From positions 3,348,001 through 3,412,000 of the forward strand of contig NZ_CP043808.1 in assembly GCF_008386315.1 (NCBI RefSeq): a DNA stretch of 64,000 nucleotides, in the 5' to 3' direction. Positions 12,864 to 45,358 of this stretch are shown here, piece after piece. The notes below the pieces were generated by a model. It did no database searches, was not told the origin of the DNA, and was given only the letters and a program-made list of their open reading frames with translations. Numbering within the stretch: the first letter of the stretch is position 1; each line of letters starts with the position of its first letter. Made by a program: the position numbers and the translations under genes. Origin of the DNA: Serinicoccus marinus DSM 15273 (GTDB taxonomy: Bacteria; Actinomycetota; Actinomycetes; Actinomycetales; Dermatophilaceae).

Positions 12864-15209
12864 TCAGAAGTTGCTGGCCATATTCGTGAATCGGCTGTAG
12901 TGGCCCTGGAATGCGACAACCACAGTGTCAGTCGGGCCGTTCCTGTGCTTGGCAACAATGACGTCCGCCTCGCCCTCGCGAGGCGACTCCCGCTCGTAGA
13001 GCGACTCGCGGTGCAGCAGGATCACGACGTCGGCGTCCTGCTCGATCGAGTTGTGAACCGCGATGCCGTTGGCGACGAAGTTGTGGCCACCGAGCACGGT
13101 GGCGTCGTAGACCTCCTCGATGCCCACCAGCTCCACCGACTGGATCTGCCCGAAGAGCACGTCGTTGACGGCTGCGAGGTCCAGCTCCTCCTTGTCCAGC
13201 ACATCGACCACCGAGCTCAACGAGCCAGCATCCTCACGCCTCATGACCTTGCCCACCTCGGCCCACAGCGGAGAAGGCTCCGACAGCCGAGGCGCGGCGG
13301 CGTGGCCTGCACCGTTTCGCACCAGCGCGAGAGCCCCCGCCACGTCTGGCCCCAGGTCGCCATGAGGCGCGACCTCCTGGAGGAAGCGGCGCTGGTCGTC
13401 CCGCTCCACAACGCCCAGGACGGCGCCCGCCACTGAACTCCGCTGCTCCGTGCTGATTCCGAAGCGCAGCAACTGTCGGGCGATCTGATCGAGCACCGAC
13501 GGGTTCCCGGGAAGGGAGATCGTGGGTCGCTCCTCGTGCGGGCTCACACCCACCTGCCCCTCGCGGGACCACATCGCAGCGACGAGCACGGCGATCTGAC
13601 GCTTAGACATGAACCACGCCTCGTCCGGGAGCCGAGACGCCCGACCCTCGACGAGATCGTCGGCCAGGGAGACCACATCGGCGTCGTCGGCCCACGGCTC
13701 ATGCCGCTCCGGCGCAGGGACGTGGCGCGGCACGGCGATGCGGTCGCCGGCGTGCAGGTCGCCGAGGGCCTTCCAGCCGTCGTAGGCCAGGAAGGGGTGG
13801 TTCTCCGTCGCTGTCAGGGTCTTGCCCGAGGTGAGAGTGAGTCGGAACACCGGCCGCGTCCCGGTGGCGAAGACGTGGGTGAGATGACGCCGGACATACC
13901 GCAGGGACTCGTCGAGGGACCACACCGGCACGTCGGTCGCGCCCTGCTCGTGAAGCTCACCGAGCGTGACCTCGGCCCCAGTGTCGGCGCGCAGCACGCG
14001 CGTGTCAGCGGTGAGGCAGCCCGACTCACGAAGGTCGCTCATCTGCGGCTTCTTGTCCGTCCGCTGCTCCGGCCCTCGGTTGAGCTGCGACAGCGCGATG
14101 ACCGGCACCTCGAGCTCCTTGGCCAGCAGCTTGAGCGCGCGGGAGAACTCCGCGACCTCTTGCTGGCGCGACTCGACCCGCTTGCCCGAGCTCATGAGCT
14201 GCAGGTAGTCGATGATCACGAGCTTGAGGTTGTTGCGCTGCTTGAGCCGGCGACACTTGGCGCGGATCTCCATGAGCGACATGTTGGGGCTGTCGTCGAT
14301 GAAGAGCGGGGCGTCGGTGATGCGGCCCTGGGTCTCGGCCAGCCGGGTCCAGTCGCGGTCGCGCATGTTGCCCTTGCGCATGTTCTGCAGCGGGATCTCC
14401 GACTCCGCCGACAGCAGGCGCATGGTGATCTCGGTCCGGCTCATCTCCAGGGAGAAGACGACCGTCGCCATCTGATGCTTGATCGCCGCGGCCCGGGCGA
14501 AATCCAGGGCGATGGTCGACTTCCCGACAGCAGGCCTGGCCGCGATGATGACCATCTGCCCGGGGTGCAGGCCGTTGGTGAGCTCGTCGAGCTCGGTGAA
14601 CCCCGTCGGCACACCGGTCATCTCCCCCGAGGACCCGGCCGCGTGCTCGATCTCGTCCATCGTGGGCTCGATGAGCATGCCGAGCGCCTGGTAGTCCTCG
14701 CCCCCGCGCTTGTCGGCGACGGCATACACCTCGGCCTGCGCGGCGTTGACGATGTCCTCGACGTCGCCCCCCTGGTAGCCGATCTGCACGATCCGGGTGC
14801 CGGCGTCCACGAGCCGCCGCAGCACCGCGCGCTCGGCGACGATCTCGGCGTAGAACGCGGCGTTGGCGGCGGTCGGGACCTCGGCGATGAGCTGGTGCAG
14901 GTATGCCGTCCCGCCGATCCGCTGCAGGTCGCCGCGCTTGGTCAGCTCGTCACCGACCGTGATCGCGTCGACCGGCTCGCCGCGGGAGTAGAGGTCCACG
15001 CAGGCCTCGAAGATGCCCTCGTGCGCCGGGCGGTAGAAGTCCTGGGCCTTGACCATCTCCGAGCACTCGGCGATGGCGTCCTTGGACAGCATCATGGAGC
15101 CCAGCGCGCTGCGCTCGGCGGCGACATCCTGAGGAGGAAGACGGTCCTCCGGGCCGCTCGGCGCACCCTGGTCCGGCGGTCCGTAGACGTCCATCTCGCT
15201 CAGCGTCAT
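12864..15209 (-). CDS. dnaB: Replicative DNA helicase DnaB with in-frame intein
   Basis: Hexameric 5'-3' replicative helicase. The mature protein of about 458 residues is split by an intein. The N-terminal domain (residues about 25-130) is followed by the RecA-like motor with Walker A AARPAVGKST (about 223-232), Walker B LVIIDYLQLM and LSQLNRGPEQR. The C-terminal 61 residues (SIEQDADVVILLHRES...) resume the helicase after the intein. ATG 15209. It is the first gene to the left of CIRCE/hsp20 and has DnaA-box-like sequences in its upstream region. The order rplI...dnaB matches other Actinobacteria, but here hsp20, a MATE gene and an AbiEi/DUF559 gene lie between. Confidence 0.96.
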   Translation of the reverse strand: MTLSEMDVYGPPDQGAPSGPEDRLPPQDVAAERSALGSMMLSKDAIAECSEMVKAQDFYRPAHEGIFEACVDLYSRGEPVDAITVGDELTKRGDLQRIGGTAYLHQLIAEVPTAANAAFYAEIVAERAVLRRLVDAGTRIVQIGYQGGDVEDIVNAAQAEVYAVADKRGGEDYQALGMLIEPTMDEIEHAAGSSGEMTGVPTGFTELDELTNGLHPGQMVIIAARPAVGKSTIALDFARAAAIKHQMATVVFSLEMSRTEITMRLLSAESEIPLQNMRKGNMRDRDWTRLAETQGRITDAPLFIDDSPNMSLMEIRAKCRRLKQRNNLKLVIIDYLQLMSSGKRVESRQQEVAEFSRALKLLAKELEVPVIALSQLNRGPEQRTDKKPQMSDLRESGCLTADTRVLRADTGAEVTLGELHEQGATDVPVWSLDESLRYVRRHLTHVFATGTRPVFRLTLTSGKTLTATENHPFLAYDGWKALGDLHAGDRIAVPRHVPAPERHEPWADDADVVSLADDLVEGRASRLPDEAWFMSKRQIAVLVAAMWSREGQVGVSPHEERPTISLPGNPSVLDQIARQLLRFGISTEQRSSVAGAVLGVVERDDQRRFLQEVAPHGDLGPDVAGALALVRNGAGHAAAPRLSEPSPLWAEVGKVMRREDAGSLSSVVDVLDKEELDLAAVNDVLFGQIQSVELVGIEEVYDATVLGGHNFVANGIAVHNSIEQDADVVILLHRESLYERESPREGEADVIVAKHRNGPTDTVVVAFQGHYSRFTNMASNF
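13050..14018 (-). mobile_element. DnaB intein (323 residues)
   Basis: Protein-splicing element at residues 398-720 of the DnaB precursor, inserted between SDLRESG and SIEQDAD. Block A begins CLTADTRVLRADTG (Cys1); block B is TATENHPFLA with the TxxH histidine; block F is VYDATVLGGHNFVANG and block G ends VHN with Ser as the +1 residue, so splicing chemistry looks complete. The middle 200 residues keep the outline of a LAGLIDADG endonuclease domain (LPDEAWFMSKRQIAVLVAAMWSREG, where active relatives usually have LWATDG) but acidic catalytic residues appear lost, so homing is probably inactive. Confidence 0.9.
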
Positions 15210-16077: not shown

Positions 16078-17418
16078 GTGACCGAGGACGGGGCGCACGG
16101 CGGGCACGGTCAGGCACGGGAGATCCTGCGCCTGGCCGTGCCCGCGTTCCTGGCCCTGGTCGCCGAGCCGCTCTTCCTGCTCGCCGACTCCGCGATCGTC
16201 GGCAACCTCGGCACCGCCGCGCTGGCCGGTCTCGGGGTCGCCAGCGCCGTGCTGCTCACTGCGGTCAACATCTTCATCTTCCTCGCCTACGGCACCACCG
16301 CGGTCGTCGCCCGCCGGCTCGGTGCCGGAGACGAACGGGGCGCGGTCAGCGCCGGCATCGACGGGGTCTGGCTCGCGCTGCTGCTCGGCGCGGTCGGCGC
16401 CGCCTTCACCGCTCTGCTCGCGCAGCCGCTGGTCCAGCTCTTCGGCGCCGGCGATGCGGTCGTGGCCGAGGCGGTGACCTACCTGCGCTGGTCGGCCCTC
16501 GGCATACCCTCCATGCTCGTCGTGCTCGCCGCGACCGGGGTGCTGCGAGGGCTGCAGGACACGCGGACCCCGCTCGTGGCCTCCGTCGTCGGCTTCACTG
16601 GCAACGCGGCGCTCTCGCTGATGCTCGTGCACGGGGTCGGGTGGGGCATCGCCGGCGCCGCGATCGGGACGGTCGTCGCGCAGACCGGTATGGCGCTCGG
16701 TCTCGTCCTCGTCGTCGTCCGCGGGGCCCGGCGGCTGGGGTCGTCCCTGACCTTCCACGGCGCGGGCGTGCTGCGGGCGGCGCGGGGGGGCATACCCCTG
16801 CTCGTGCGGACCATCGCGCTGCGCGCGGCGCTGCTGCTCACCACCTGGTCGGCCGCCGGGCTGGGCGACGAGCAGCTGGCGGCGCACCAGGTGGCGCTGA
16901 CGGTATGGTCCACGCTCGCCTTCGCCCTCGACGCGCTGGCCATCGCCGCCCAGGCGCTCACCGGCAAGACCCTGGGTGCCAGCGACGTCACGGGGACGCG
17001 GGAGGCGACAGCACTGATGGTGCGGTGGTCGGTGTGGTTCGGCGTGATCCTGGCCGTGCTCATCGTCGCGCTGCACCGCGTCATCCCGCTCGGCTTCAGC
17101 CAGGACGCCGACGTGCGGGCCGCCCTGGCCGCGGCCCTGCTCGTCGTGGCGGTCGGCCAGCCGATCGCCGGGATCGCCTTCATCCTGGATGGTGTGCTCA
17201 TCGGCGCCGGCGACACCCGGTGGTTGGCGTGGGCGCAGACCGCGGCGACCGTGGCCTACCTCCCGATGGTGCTGGGGGTCCGGCTCAGCGGTGTCGACGG
17301 CACGACCGGGCTGATCTGGCTGTGGGTCGCCTTCACCGGGTTCATGACCGTGCGCTCGATGCTCATGTGGCGGCGGGCGCGCGGCGAGGCGTGGATGGTG
17401 GTCGGCGCCGAGCGGTGA
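16078..17418 (+). CDS. MATE-family efflux transporter (DinF-like)
   Basis: A 446-residue polytopic membrane protein with about twelve hydrophobic segments in two similar halves. It begins REILRLAVPAFLALVAEPLFLLADSAIVGNLGTAALAGLGVA, the signature start of DinF-type MATE transporters, and the second half has QVALTVWSTLAFALDALAIAAQALTGK. It should exchange protons or sodium for organic cations or drugs. GTG 16078 is the first start in frame. Two copies of GGCATACC encode Gly-Ile-Pro with the rare ATA codon (16501, 16789). The palindrome pair at 17473 begins 55 bp after the stop. Confidence 0.92.
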   Translation: MTEDGAHGGHGQAREILRLAVPAFLALVAEPLFLLADSAIVGNLGTAALAGLGVASAVLLTAVNIFIFLAYGTTAVVARRLGAGDERGAVSAGIDGVWLALLLGAVGAAFTALLAQPLVQLFGAGDAVVAEAVTYLRWSALGIPSMLVVLAATGVLRGLQDTRTPLVASVVGFTGNAALSLMLVHGVGWGIAGAAIGTVVAQTGMALGLVLVVVRGARRLGSSLTFHGAGVLRAARGGIPLLVRTIALRAALLLTTWSAAGLGDEQLAAHQVALTVWSTLAFALDALAIAAQALTGKTLGASDVTGTREATALMVRWSVWFGVILAVLIVALHRVIPLGFSQDADVRAALAAALLVVAVGQPIAGIAFILDGVLIGAGDTRWLAWAQTAATVAYLPMVLGVRLSGVDGTTGLIWLWVAFTGFMTVRSMLMWRRARGEAWMVVGAER

Positions 17419-17472
17419 GCGGCAGGGGGCAGTGCCCCGGCGGGCTTGGCGCCGTTCCTCGAGGCCTAGGCC

Positions 17473-17572
17473 GACCGTGGAAGTGTCGCCCCGGCGGCGC
17501 ATCCACGGTCAGCAGCCGCTGTCAGCCCCCAGCCGACCGTGACACTGCTGCCGCGGCGACGCTTCGAGGGTC
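17473..17572. repeat. Two 38-bp palindromic repeat units, 62-bp period (upstream of DUF559 gene)
   Basis: Units at 17473-17510 and 17535-17572, separated by 24 bp. The first starts GACCGTGGAA and ends ATCCACGGTC and folds as an 18-2-18 hairpin in which inner T:G positions would pair as G-U in RNA. The spacer holds CCGCTGTC, also found in spacers of the larger array at 18598-18984. The rest of the 212-bp gap (17419-17630) shows nothing else. Confidence 0.8.
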
Positions 17573-17630
17573 CAGGAGTGGCCTGTGGATAGGTTCAGCG
17601 AGGCGTCGTCGGTGCGTCGCAGACTGGGGT

Positions 17631-18599
17631 ATGCCCACGACGCGCGCCGAGCGCAGGACAACCCAGCGGCTCGAACGTGCCCGGCGGCACCGGCTCGCGC
17701 GAGAGCTGGCCGAGCCGCACGACGGGGTGGTCACGAGGCGGATGCTCCTGGAAGCCGGGCTGACACCAGGGCAGATCGCCACGGAGATCGACCACGGCGC
17801 GTGGAGTCGGGCGGGAGCGCATACCCTCTGCATCACCTCGGACGTGCCGAGCGGCCGTGCCCTGTGGTGGTGGGCCGTCTGGGAGTCCGGCACCCACAGC
17901 GTCCTGGACGGCGCGACGGCGTTGCTGGCTGCCGGGCTGCAGCACTGGGAGGAGCCGGTCATCCACGTCGCCGTGCCCAACAACGCCACGGTCCGCCGAC
18001 TGGAAGGGGTCCGGCACCACCGCCTGCGCGACCTGGGGCCGCGCATCACCTCGGGTCTTCGGCGCACACCACCCGACGTCGCGGTGGTCCGCGCGGCGCG
18101 ATGGGCCAGGACCGACCGGCAGGCGGCCACCCTCGTGGCGATGACCGTGCAGCAGCGGCTCGTGGCGCCGGACGCTCTGCTCGTCCGCTGGCAGCAGATG
18201 AGGCGGACCTGGGAGACCTCAGTGCTCGACGAGGTCATCAGGGACGTCTGCGACGGGGCTCACTCGCTCAACGAGCTGGACTTCGCCGCCGAGTGCCGTC
18301 GCCGCGGTCTTCCCGAGCCGACCCGGCAGGCCGTGCGCACCGGGCGCAACGGCCGGGTCTATCTCGACGTGTTCTGGGATGAGCTCGGCATCCACGTGGA
18401 GATCCACGGCGCCCAACACTTCCAGGGCACGGCCGGCATCGACGACGCCCTCCGGCACAACGACCTGCAGGTCCGCGACCGCACGCTGGTCAGCCTGCAG
18501 ATCCCGGTGCTGGGGCTGCGGACGACCCCGGAACCGTTCTTCCGGCAGCTCGGAGCCGCCCTCGAGGCGGCCCGACGACGGCTCGGACAGGCCGGCTGA
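17631..18599 (+). CDS. AbiEi-type HTH plus DUF559 (Vsr-like nuclease fold) protein
   Basis: A 322-residue protein of a common but uncharacterised actinobacterial family. Residues about 25-60 (DGVVTRRMLLEAGLTPGQIATEI) match the winged-helix start of AbiEi-type antitoxin proteins. Residues about 205-310 (NELDFAAECRRRGLPEPTRQ...RVYLDVFWDELGIHVEIHG) match DUF559, which shares the Vsr/PD-(D/E)XK endonuclease fold, with a plausible D..E.E core in YLDVFW...HVEIHG. There is no AbiEii partner next to it. It is bracketed on both sides by 38-bp palindrome arrays, and its start codon lies inside a GGTATGCC octamer. Function unknown. Confidence 0.8.
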   Translation: MPTTRAERRTTQRLERARRHRLARELAEPHDGVVTRRMLLEAGLTPGQIATEIDHGAWSRAGAHTLCITSDVPSGRALWWWAVWESGTHSVLDGATALLAAGLQHWEEPVIHVAVPNNATVRRLEGVRHHRLRDLGPRITSGLRRTPPDVAVVRAARWARTDRQAATLVAMTVQQRLVAPDALLVRWQQMRRTWETSVLDEVIRDVCDGAHSLNELDFAAECRRRGLPEPTRQAVRTGRNGRVYLDVFWDELGIHVEIHGAQHFQGTAGIDDALRHNDLQVRDRTLVSLQIPVLGLRTTPEPFFRQLGAALEAARRRLGQAG

Positions 18600-18984
18600 C
18601 CGGGAAAGGTGCGCCCCGGCGAGACTTCCACGGTCGGCACCACGTCAGAGGGCCGGGTGACCGGGGAATGCGCGCCGGGGCAGCACTTCCACGGTCGCAC
18701 CCGCCCGTCGACCGCTACCCGACCGGGGAAAAGGCGCCATGGCGAGACTTCCACGGTCACCCGCCCCCCCTTGCCGCGCCGGGGCAGCACTTCCACGGTC
18801 ACAAGCGCTGTCGAGGCAACGCCGACCGGCGAAAGCGCGCCGCGGCAGCATTTCCACGGTCACAACCGCTGTCGAGGGCAACGCCGACCGGCAAAGGCGC
18901 GCCGCGGCAGCATTTCCACGGTCGCACCCGCCCGCCGACCGCTACCCGACCGGGGAAAGGCGCCATGGCGAGACTTCCACGGTC
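18598..18984. repeat. Array of seven 38-bp palindromic units at 62-bp period
   Basis: Units at 18598-18635, 18659-18696, 18721-18758, a left-truncated copy ending 18800, 18824-18861, 18886-18923 and 18948-18984. Each starts GACCGG(G/C)GAA-like and ends (A/C)(T/C)TTCCACGGTC-like, with a GC-rich centre of CGCC/GGCG type. Spacers are 23-24 bp and fall into two recurring types (one with CGCTGTCGAGG, one with CCGACCGCTACCC), so the true unit is 62 bp in tandem. The array starts at the stop codon of the DUF559 gene and lies between convergent genes. It has REP/BIME character, not CRISPR. Confidence 0.88.
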
Positions 18985-19029
18985 ACGGGGCGGCGATCAG
19001 CGAGCGGCGCCTCGACGGGCGGACGCGGA

Positions 19030-19061
19030 ACGGCCCCGCCTCCCGGGGGAGACGGGGCCGT
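19030..19061 (-). terminator. Intrinsic-type hairpin after rplI
   Basis: ACGGCCCCG..CTCCC pairs with GGGAG..CGGGGCCGT (one mismatch, short loop), 31 bp beyond the rplI stop on the minus strand. It is a very stable GC-rich stem without a U-tract, and is the likely end of the rpsF-ssb-rpsR-rplI transcript. Confidence 0.7.
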
Positions 19062-19091
19062 ACGGCGTGTGCTGCGCGTGCAGCCGGCCGC

Positions 19092-19541
19092 TCAGGCGGA
19101 GGCGACGACGCTGACGGTGACGTCGGCGGCGAGGTCTTCGTGCAGGCGGACGTGCACGGCGTGGTCGCCGACGCTGCGGATCGGGGTGCGGACCTCGATC
19201 CGGCGCTTGTCGACCTCGGGGCCACCGCTGGCGGCGATCGCCTCGGCGATCTCGCCCGGGGTGACGGCACCGAAGAGGCGGCCACCGGACCCGGCGCGGG
19301 CCTCGACGGTGATCTCGGCGCCCTCGAGCCGGGCCTTGGCGGCGGCGGCGTCCTCGGCGCTCTTCACGGCCCGCTTGTCGCGGGCCGCCTTGATCGAGTC
19401 GACCTGCTTCTGGCCGCCCTTGGTCCAGGCGGTCGCCACCTTGCGGGGCAGCAGGTAGTTGCGGGCGTAGCCGTCCTTGACGTCGACGACGTCACCGGCG
19501 TCACCGAGGCCGGTGACAGGCTGGGTGAGGATGATCTTCAT
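19092..19541 (-). CDS. rplI: 50S ribosomal protein L9
   Basis: A 149-residue ribosomal protein that binds 23S rRNA at the base of the L1 stalk. The N-terminal globular domain MKIILTQPVTGLGDAGDVVDVKDGYARNYLLP is the family signature; a long connecting helix (about residues 42-75) leads to the C-terminal RNA-binding domain. It is the last gene of the rpsF-ssb-rpsR-rplI operon, 24 bp after rpsR, and is followed by a strong hairpin. Confidence 0.98.
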   Translation of the reverse strand: MKIILTQPVTGLGDAGDVVDVKDGYARNYLLPRKVATAWTKGGQKQVDSIKAARDKRAVKSAEDAAAAKARLEGAEITVEARAGSGGRLFGAVTPGEIAEAIAASGGPEVDKRRIEVRTPIRSVGDHAVHVRLHEDLAADVTVSVVASA

Positions 19542-45257: not shown

Positions 45258-45358
45258 GACCGGCGACGTCAGGCCCCGGCACGACTTTCTACGGTCGGTG
45301 ACCAGCACCCGAGCAGCACCGACCGGGGAAGTCCCGCCCCGGCGCGATCTCCCCGGTC
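45258..45358. repeat. Two 38-39-bp palindromic repeat units, 24-bp spacer
   Basis: Units at 45258-45296 and 45321-45358 start GACCGG(C/G)GA and end ACGGTC/CCGGTC with a GC-rich centre, matching the family at 17473 and 18598-18984 with the same 24-bp spacer. They fill the 104-bp gap between two convergent glycosyltransferase genes; the stop codon of the minus-strand gene (45357-45359) lies on the end of the second unit. Possibly serves as the bidirectional terminator. Confidence 0.8.

Follow-up and report, generated by a model that had tools for sequence, protein, structure and literature searches.

The window analysed here is a stretch of 64,000 nucleotides from Serinicoccus marinus DSM 15273, and at 18598-18984 it carries a tandem array of short palindromes, located between the convergent genes for a protein of 322 residues and for ribosomal protein L9 (rplI). 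The array is formed by six complete palindromes (five of 38 bp and one of 37 bp) and one truncated unit; beyond it, two more pairs of copies of the same family, here called family 1, are present in the window at 17473-17572 and 45258-45358. The features are the following, in window coordinates:

17473..17510, minus strand: extra family copy, upstream of the 322-aa gene; polarity weak
17535..17572, plus strand: extra family copy, 62 bp from the copy at 17473..17510
17631..18599, plus strand: gene of the 322-aa protein; TGA stop completed by unit 1
18598..18635, minus strand: unit 1, 38-bp palindrome; 18598-18599 double as the GA of the upstream gene's TGA stop (18597-18599)
18659..18696, minus strand: unit 2
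18697..18720, no strand: spacer type a; second instance at 18924-18947
18721..18758, minus strand: unit 3; has the family 2 (52-bp family) centre GCCATGGC
18763..18800, minus strand: unit 4, truncated by loss of one arm; 42 bp from unit 3
18801..18823, no strand: spacer type b; second instance at 18862-18885
18824..18861, minus strand: unit 5
18886..18923, minus strand: unit 6
18948..18984, minus strand: unit 7, 37 bp (short by one base)
19032..19059, minus strand: GC-rich hairpin between rplI and the array, seen by eye; no terminator call there
19092..19541, minus strand: rplI (ribosomal protein L9), convergent with the 322-aa gene
45258..45296, minus strand: degenerate 39-bp family copy
45321..45358, minus strand: extra family copy, 63 bp from the 45258 copy; locus L119; weak polarity; a stop codon is completed by its edge

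All units of the array have the same orientation and the form GACCG.GGAA...GCC..GGC...TTCCACGGTC; the motif TTCCACGGTC occurs seven times within 18598-18984 and eight times in the whole window, against 0.12 expected from shuffling. The seven units score 9.4 to 50.0 bits with a weight matrix, and the best score over three shuffled windows was -0.6. A previous sequence-only reading had described a tandem hairpin array of seven units, one of them truncated, with two recurring and conserved types of spacer, and both observations were confirmed: one spacer type, GCACCCGCCCG[T/C]CGACCGCTACCC, follows units 2 and 6, and the other, ACAA[C/G]CGCTGTCGAGG(G)CAACGCC, follows units 4 and 5. The strict 62-bp period that it also proposed does not hold. 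The units end at 18635, 18696, 18758, 18800, 18861, 18923 and 18984, i.e., in steps of 61, 62, 42, 61, 62 and 61 bp, which gives a period of 61-62 bp save for the 42 bp between units 3 and 4, and spacings of 51-52 bp form a second class in the family. Expansion by whole 62-bp units was correct with regard to whole units, since unit numbers at the rplI locus vary by species (7, 3 and 2), but the unit is not always 62 bp long.

The 322-aa protein has no family in Pfam (E<=0.001) or NCBIfam (E<=1), and neither of them confirms an identification as a DUF559 protein. Its gene is flanked on both sides by copies (17473-18984), and was considered as the cause or the cargo of these copies. Copies on both sides are found in the window's own genome (G000, with a 3.42-Mb chromosome) and in its relative G044, and the far copy of G043 reaches only 7 bits; the possibility was discarded because there is no homologue among the 335 proteins predicted in 52 family-1 stretches, except for the orthologues at the same locus in G000, G043 and G044. 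In the relatives G012, G042 and G011 another gene follows rplI, and palindrome copies are absent there too. Hairpins resembling that at 19032-19059 also follow rplI, as judged by eye, in relatives that are free of the array.

A covariance model built from 30 copies (E up to 1) located family-1 copies at 15 loci of G000; at these loci 40 units exceed 8 bits by the matrix, or 41 including one 39-bp copy, i.e., approximately 41 copies. A second model, built from 98 copies, gave strong matches in seven of 31 genomes of the genus (G000, G007, G012, G018, G042, G043 and G044; best E of 3.2e-8 or lower), weak matches only in 14 (9e-4 to 0.08), and no match at E 0.1 in the remaining 10. None of 27 genomes outside the genus was matched by the first model at E 0.05, and a scan of GTDB species genomes with the exact pattern, perhaps one that did not include the window's own record, found five matching stretches, all within three Serinicoccus genomes. 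Viral contigs had no match to the exact family-1 pattern and plasmids and phages had none to the window array, for which reason a phage or plasmid origin of the family was rejected; likewise, no Rfam RNA family matched the window at gathering scores. The suggestion that the array represents a family-specific REP-like element with copies elsewhere in the genome and in relatives was thus largely right, the family being clade-specific and extragenic. Nevertheless, the sister species G007, whose L9 is 96% identical, has one family-1 array where G000 has 15, from which it follows that these arrays are dispensable. For the counts given below, the matrix yielded 107 hits in 52 stretches fetched from the seven genomes; 51 stretches contain hits, and stretch L139, with no hit over 8 bits, was left out of the family-1 counts.

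The organization of the unit was deduced from 98 distinct copies with a score of 19 bits or more; duplicates and weaker copies were excluded, among the latter those of L118 and L111 that are truncated or measure 37 or 39 bp. These copies align without gaps at a single length, and they show four nearly invariant blocks, GACCGT, GCC, GGC and CGGTC, with variable stretches in between. Therefore, of the earlier statement that the outer arms are nearly invariant while the centre drifts, the first part stands, but the centre is not merely drifting; GCC..GGC is fixed there as strongly as the outer arms. The centre dinucleotide is mostly GG or CC; GC, CG and AT occur too. One column pair opposes T to C in most copies (61/98), and hence the copies have polarity. 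When the arm pairs were treated as a full stem, covariation was not above that of shuffles (0.143 versus 0.142, with 230 of 500 shuffles as high), and pair covariation was discarded as proof of a stem. The polar strand has more G-T than A-C mismatches (195 versus 80, or 128 versus 69 without two columns), an excess that was also set aside, given that by our own arithmetic it is approximately what base composition predicts. Invariant blocks separated by variable stretches, together with the absence of covariation, fit the recognition of a sequence and not of a stem. In orthologous copies (8 of 12 locus groups, using solely pairs with equal unit numbers) the blocks are identical at 565/578 positions (97.8%), the inner stretches at 583/714 (82%), the spacers at 157/195 (81%) and the flanks at 686/900 (76%); from these values selection seems to act on the sequence blocks, whose conservation is partly ascertained because the copies were found through those same blocks.

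With respect to gene ends, a point already raised by the sequence-only reading, 51 of 55 family-1 arrays face the 3' end of a gene: according to a home-made gene caller, not a published one, 28 lie between convergent genes, 23 between tandem and four between divergent genes. The stretches fetched for the two families contain 262 further gaps, of which 24 are convergent, 171 tandem and 67 divergent, so that the convergent class is in clear excess in family 1 (28/55) and in family 2, described below (25/44), as compared with 24/262 (p about 1e-11 each). The flanking genes are ordinary, e.g., those for DNA ligase, RuvB, thymidine kinase and L9; beside one array, the gene at 3233-4189 of L116 matches the aminoglycoside/hydroxyurea kinase family (PF04655). 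In 23 of the 55 arrays (8 of 24 locus groups), that of the window included, the second and third bases of a stop codon come from the edge of the element, the codon being TGA in 22 cases and TAA in one; gene calls blind to the elements gave the same 23 overlaps, and one more, visible by eye at L113, is outside this count. The base before the 107 copies is T in 77, C in 29 and G in one, and the base after is G in 77, A in 26, C in two and T in two. At L119 the element supplies the stop codon, since G007 has no stop there as judged by eye.

In place of the array that other species carry, G007 and G040 have a different palindrome, family 2, beside rplI, and G007 has it at the tRNA-Lys locus as well. 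Its unit is 52 bp long, with the majority sequence GAATTCGACCTCTCGAATCGTCGCCATGGCGACGATTCGAGAGGTCGAATTC and the centre GCCATGGC; a pattern for it matches 37 times in G007, 30 times in G040 and nowhere in the remaining 28 relatives, and with one mismatch it matches G000 twice, at window units 3 and 7. The family-2 arrays (L256-L293) amount to 23 in G007 and 21 in G040, their tandem spacing is 73 bp in nine cases and otherwise 62, 63 or 65 bp, and two copies are perfect palindromes across the 52 bp. The layout GACC, gap, GAA, 5 nt, GCC is common to both families, which may therefore be homologous.

Start-to-start distances below 130 bp in family 1 are far from random: 42 bp once (the truncated unit), 51-52 bp in 13 cases and 59-63 bp in 38, with none from 53 to 58 bp. 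Both families together give 64 spacings: 42 bp once, 51-52 bp 13 times, 59-63 bp 40 times, 65 bp once and 73 bp nine times; two of these spacings, of 51 and 62 bp, depend on weak second copies, that of L132 (half lost, 11 bits) and that of L138 (16 bits), respectively. The phase test was restricted to these spacings; the distances above 130 bp were 438 (twice), 676, 838, 876, 953, 1063, 1106, 1127 and 1171. Both distances of 438 bp are those of the group A locus of G012 and G018 (L131 2975-3512 and L137 3044-3581), where copies enclose a small gene that matches nothing in Pfam; in G042 (L150 2979-3016) a single copy bears both outer flanks, corresponding either to a deletion between copies or to the state before insertion. 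The spacing class is not tied to the locus, because species differ at the same site: at ruvB the family-1 spacing is 62 bp in G000, 52 and 52 bp in G044 and 51 bp (to a half-lost copy) in G012, with a single copy in G042 and G043, and at another locus it is 59 bp in G044 and 62 bp in G018.

As many as 61 of the 64 spacings deviate by at most 2 bp from a multiple of 10.5 bp, versus 47% of the integers from 42 to 75; those off the grid (59, 60 and 60 bp) are 3-4 bp away. Reduced by locus and class, 31 values remain, whose resultant at 10.5 bp is 0.88, compared with 0.60 at the 99.9% point under uniformity; this null assumes independent values, which the 31 may not be, as family-2 loci were not grouped by orthology. 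Their phase is -0.15 bp at 10.4, and the best-fitting period is 10.7 bp (10.8 bp for all 64), not exactly 10.5. If the spacings descend from three or four ancestral unit lengths, the phasing is far weaker evidence, and chance would then account for it in a few per cent of cases by our own estimate.

REPs are usually associated with RAYT transposases and RNA hairpins. The Y1 transposase domain of RAYT (TnpA-REP) proteins, PF01797, was found in none of the 31 genomes of the genus, while a positive control found it in five of 14 named genomes, and mobilisation of family 1 by a RAYT was rejected on this basis. As described in Di Nocera 2013 (PMC3733652), GTAG/CGTC REPs are palindromes of 20-40 bp that lie mostly between convergent or unidirectional genes, are often repeated in tandem with flanking DNA, and often provide TAG stops through their GTAG termini; most dimers have spacers of 20-100 bp. 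Family 1 resembles them in palindrome size, location, tandem reiteration and the supply of stops (TGA instead of TAG). It differs in that by inspection the flanks of the 107 copies have no GTAG/CGTC tag, in its approximately 41 copies mostly in one orientation, and in spacing classes about one helical turn apart, in contrast with the 20-100 bp reported in that paper, where the actinobacterial terms tried have no match. According to Nunvar 2010 (PMC2817692), several proteins, including DNA gyrase and IHF, bind to BIMEs and REPs, and REPs usually exceed 100 copies per genome. BIMEs and the RAYT-associated REPs described there are also extragenic palindromes with regular spacing; however, the proposal that the array is a BIME did not survive, given that the units do not alternate (27 of 37 multi-unit arrays run one way and 10 are mixed, orientation being weakly defined in near-perfect palindromes) and no RAYT gene was found in the 31 genomes of the genus. 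In the broad sense of REP, family 1 has the repeated palindrome of 20-40 bp and the extragenic position downstream of genes, but its copy number is below the 100 given in that paper, and the 52 bp of family 2 are outside the size range. Considering the absence of PF01797 and of tags, the low copy number and the mostly one-way arrays, family 1 falls outside the RAYT, tagged-REP and BIME classes; the 38-bp palindromes look like a lineage-specific REP-like family without the usual transposase, i.e., a new kind of REP repeat. Among titles and the first lines of abstracts, a scope with most subscription journals outside it, no treatment of family 1 or of REP helical phasing was recognised.

The fixed length, the fixed blocks, the lack of covariation and the helical spacing suggest that each copy, GACCGT ... 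GCC-NN-GGC ... CGGTC, could be a duplex site of fixed length for a putative dimeric protein, adjacent copies being occupied on the same side of the helix and the array serving as a boundary. Neighbours are mostly about five or six helical turns apart (seven in family 2), and with whole-turn spacing bound dimers would be oriented alike, which could allow cooperative binding; an array behind stop codons, often between convergent genes, would bound transcription or supercoiling. Arrays lengthen or shorten as whole units are gained or lost. The protein, its binding to the duplex, the cooperativity, the boundary function and a route of copies to new loci are what we infer from these comparisons, and given the near-absence of the family from G007, the off-grid spacings, the possible common descent of the spacings and the fact that an RNA role predicts the same 3'-end location, we propose the duplex site tentatively, at somewhat less than an even chance. 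A broader version seems rather unlikely: a rapidly evolving boundary system, in which a lineage-specific dimeric protein would co-evolve with its sites (38 bp in one set of species, 52 bp in G007 and G040), with selection for whole-turn spacing behind genes and assembly on one face between converging transcription units.

Alternatively, the copies could be a purely selfish miniature element, mobilised in trans by a transposase or recombinase that favours T-GA sites, with the spacing set by the geometry of cutting or copying and without any service to the host. The fast turnover (one array in G007 versus 15 in G000) is what such an element predicts, and so are the plain TGA stops seen by eye in orthologues without the element at three loci (ruvB in G007 and G011, L115 in G007 and L109 in G011, in a comparison covering 10 of the 15 G000 loci and three genomes). 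The resembling family at the rplI and tRNA-Lys loci, the presence of copies on both sides of a gene, and the single copy that replaces copy-gene-copy in one relative at the group A locus point in the same direction. Nevertheless, besides the lack of RAYT genes and of plasmid or phage matches, no transposase or recombinase family was detected among 28 flanking or intervening proteins from the G000 loci and two loci of relatives (10 of the 28 matched no family at all), no target-site duplication was established, and the blocks are intact in orthologous copies, so that we consider a purely selfish origin somewhat unlikely.

The location at gene 3' ends, the overlap with stop codons and the scarcity of divergent gaps (8/99 versus 67/262) would equally be expected of RNA hairpins of the 3' UTR that end transcription or protect the mRNA. 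Both strands of the window array fold better than shuffles (z of -3.0 and -4.9), and the mRNA corresponds to the polar strand in 18 of the 23 stop-overlapping arrays; however, this is so in just 9 of the 28 other arrays that face a 3' end, and in the window the polar strand is antisense to the overlapped 322-aa gene. Intrinsic terminators share with family 1 the potential to form GC-rich hairpins at gene ends, but the window array lacks a T-run, no terminator-like site was called in 17300-19200, which led us to reject this identity, and the arms are fixed in sequence and do not covary. A helical grid would have no evident meaning for RNA hairpins, and a role of this kind is rather unlikely. 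Serine recombinases bind imperfect palindromes with a centre dinucleotide, and the size of the 38-bp units, their conserved outer and inner half-site blocks, the mostly GG or CC centre and a group A locus readable as a deletion between copies are reminiscent of recombination sites, a very improbable identity since all of GG, CC, GC, CG and AT are present as centres, ordinary repeat recombination would account for the deletion, and no recombinase family is found among the 28 proteins scanned.

Whether or not the copies are duplex sites for a dimeric protein, the genus holds a REP-like family, with no RAYT found alongside it, that keeps sequence blocks rather than the pairing of a stem, and in both look-alike families the spacing is in step with the helix; this makes the old question of whether such palindromes are selfish, RNA signals or duplex protein sites accessible to experiment. 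With regard to the distribution of the family along the chromosome, seven of the 15 G000 loci are within 225 kb of the contig's first base (G000:C1 3251300-3396300 and 50800-226900), a radius that was chosen afterwards; in G012 one of five listed loci is so placed, and the clustering may be due to chance. Elsewhere in the window, at 12864-15209, the gene for a DnaB-type replicative helicase contains an intein, with matches to the N- and C-terminal splicing regions at residues 398-474 and 699-721.
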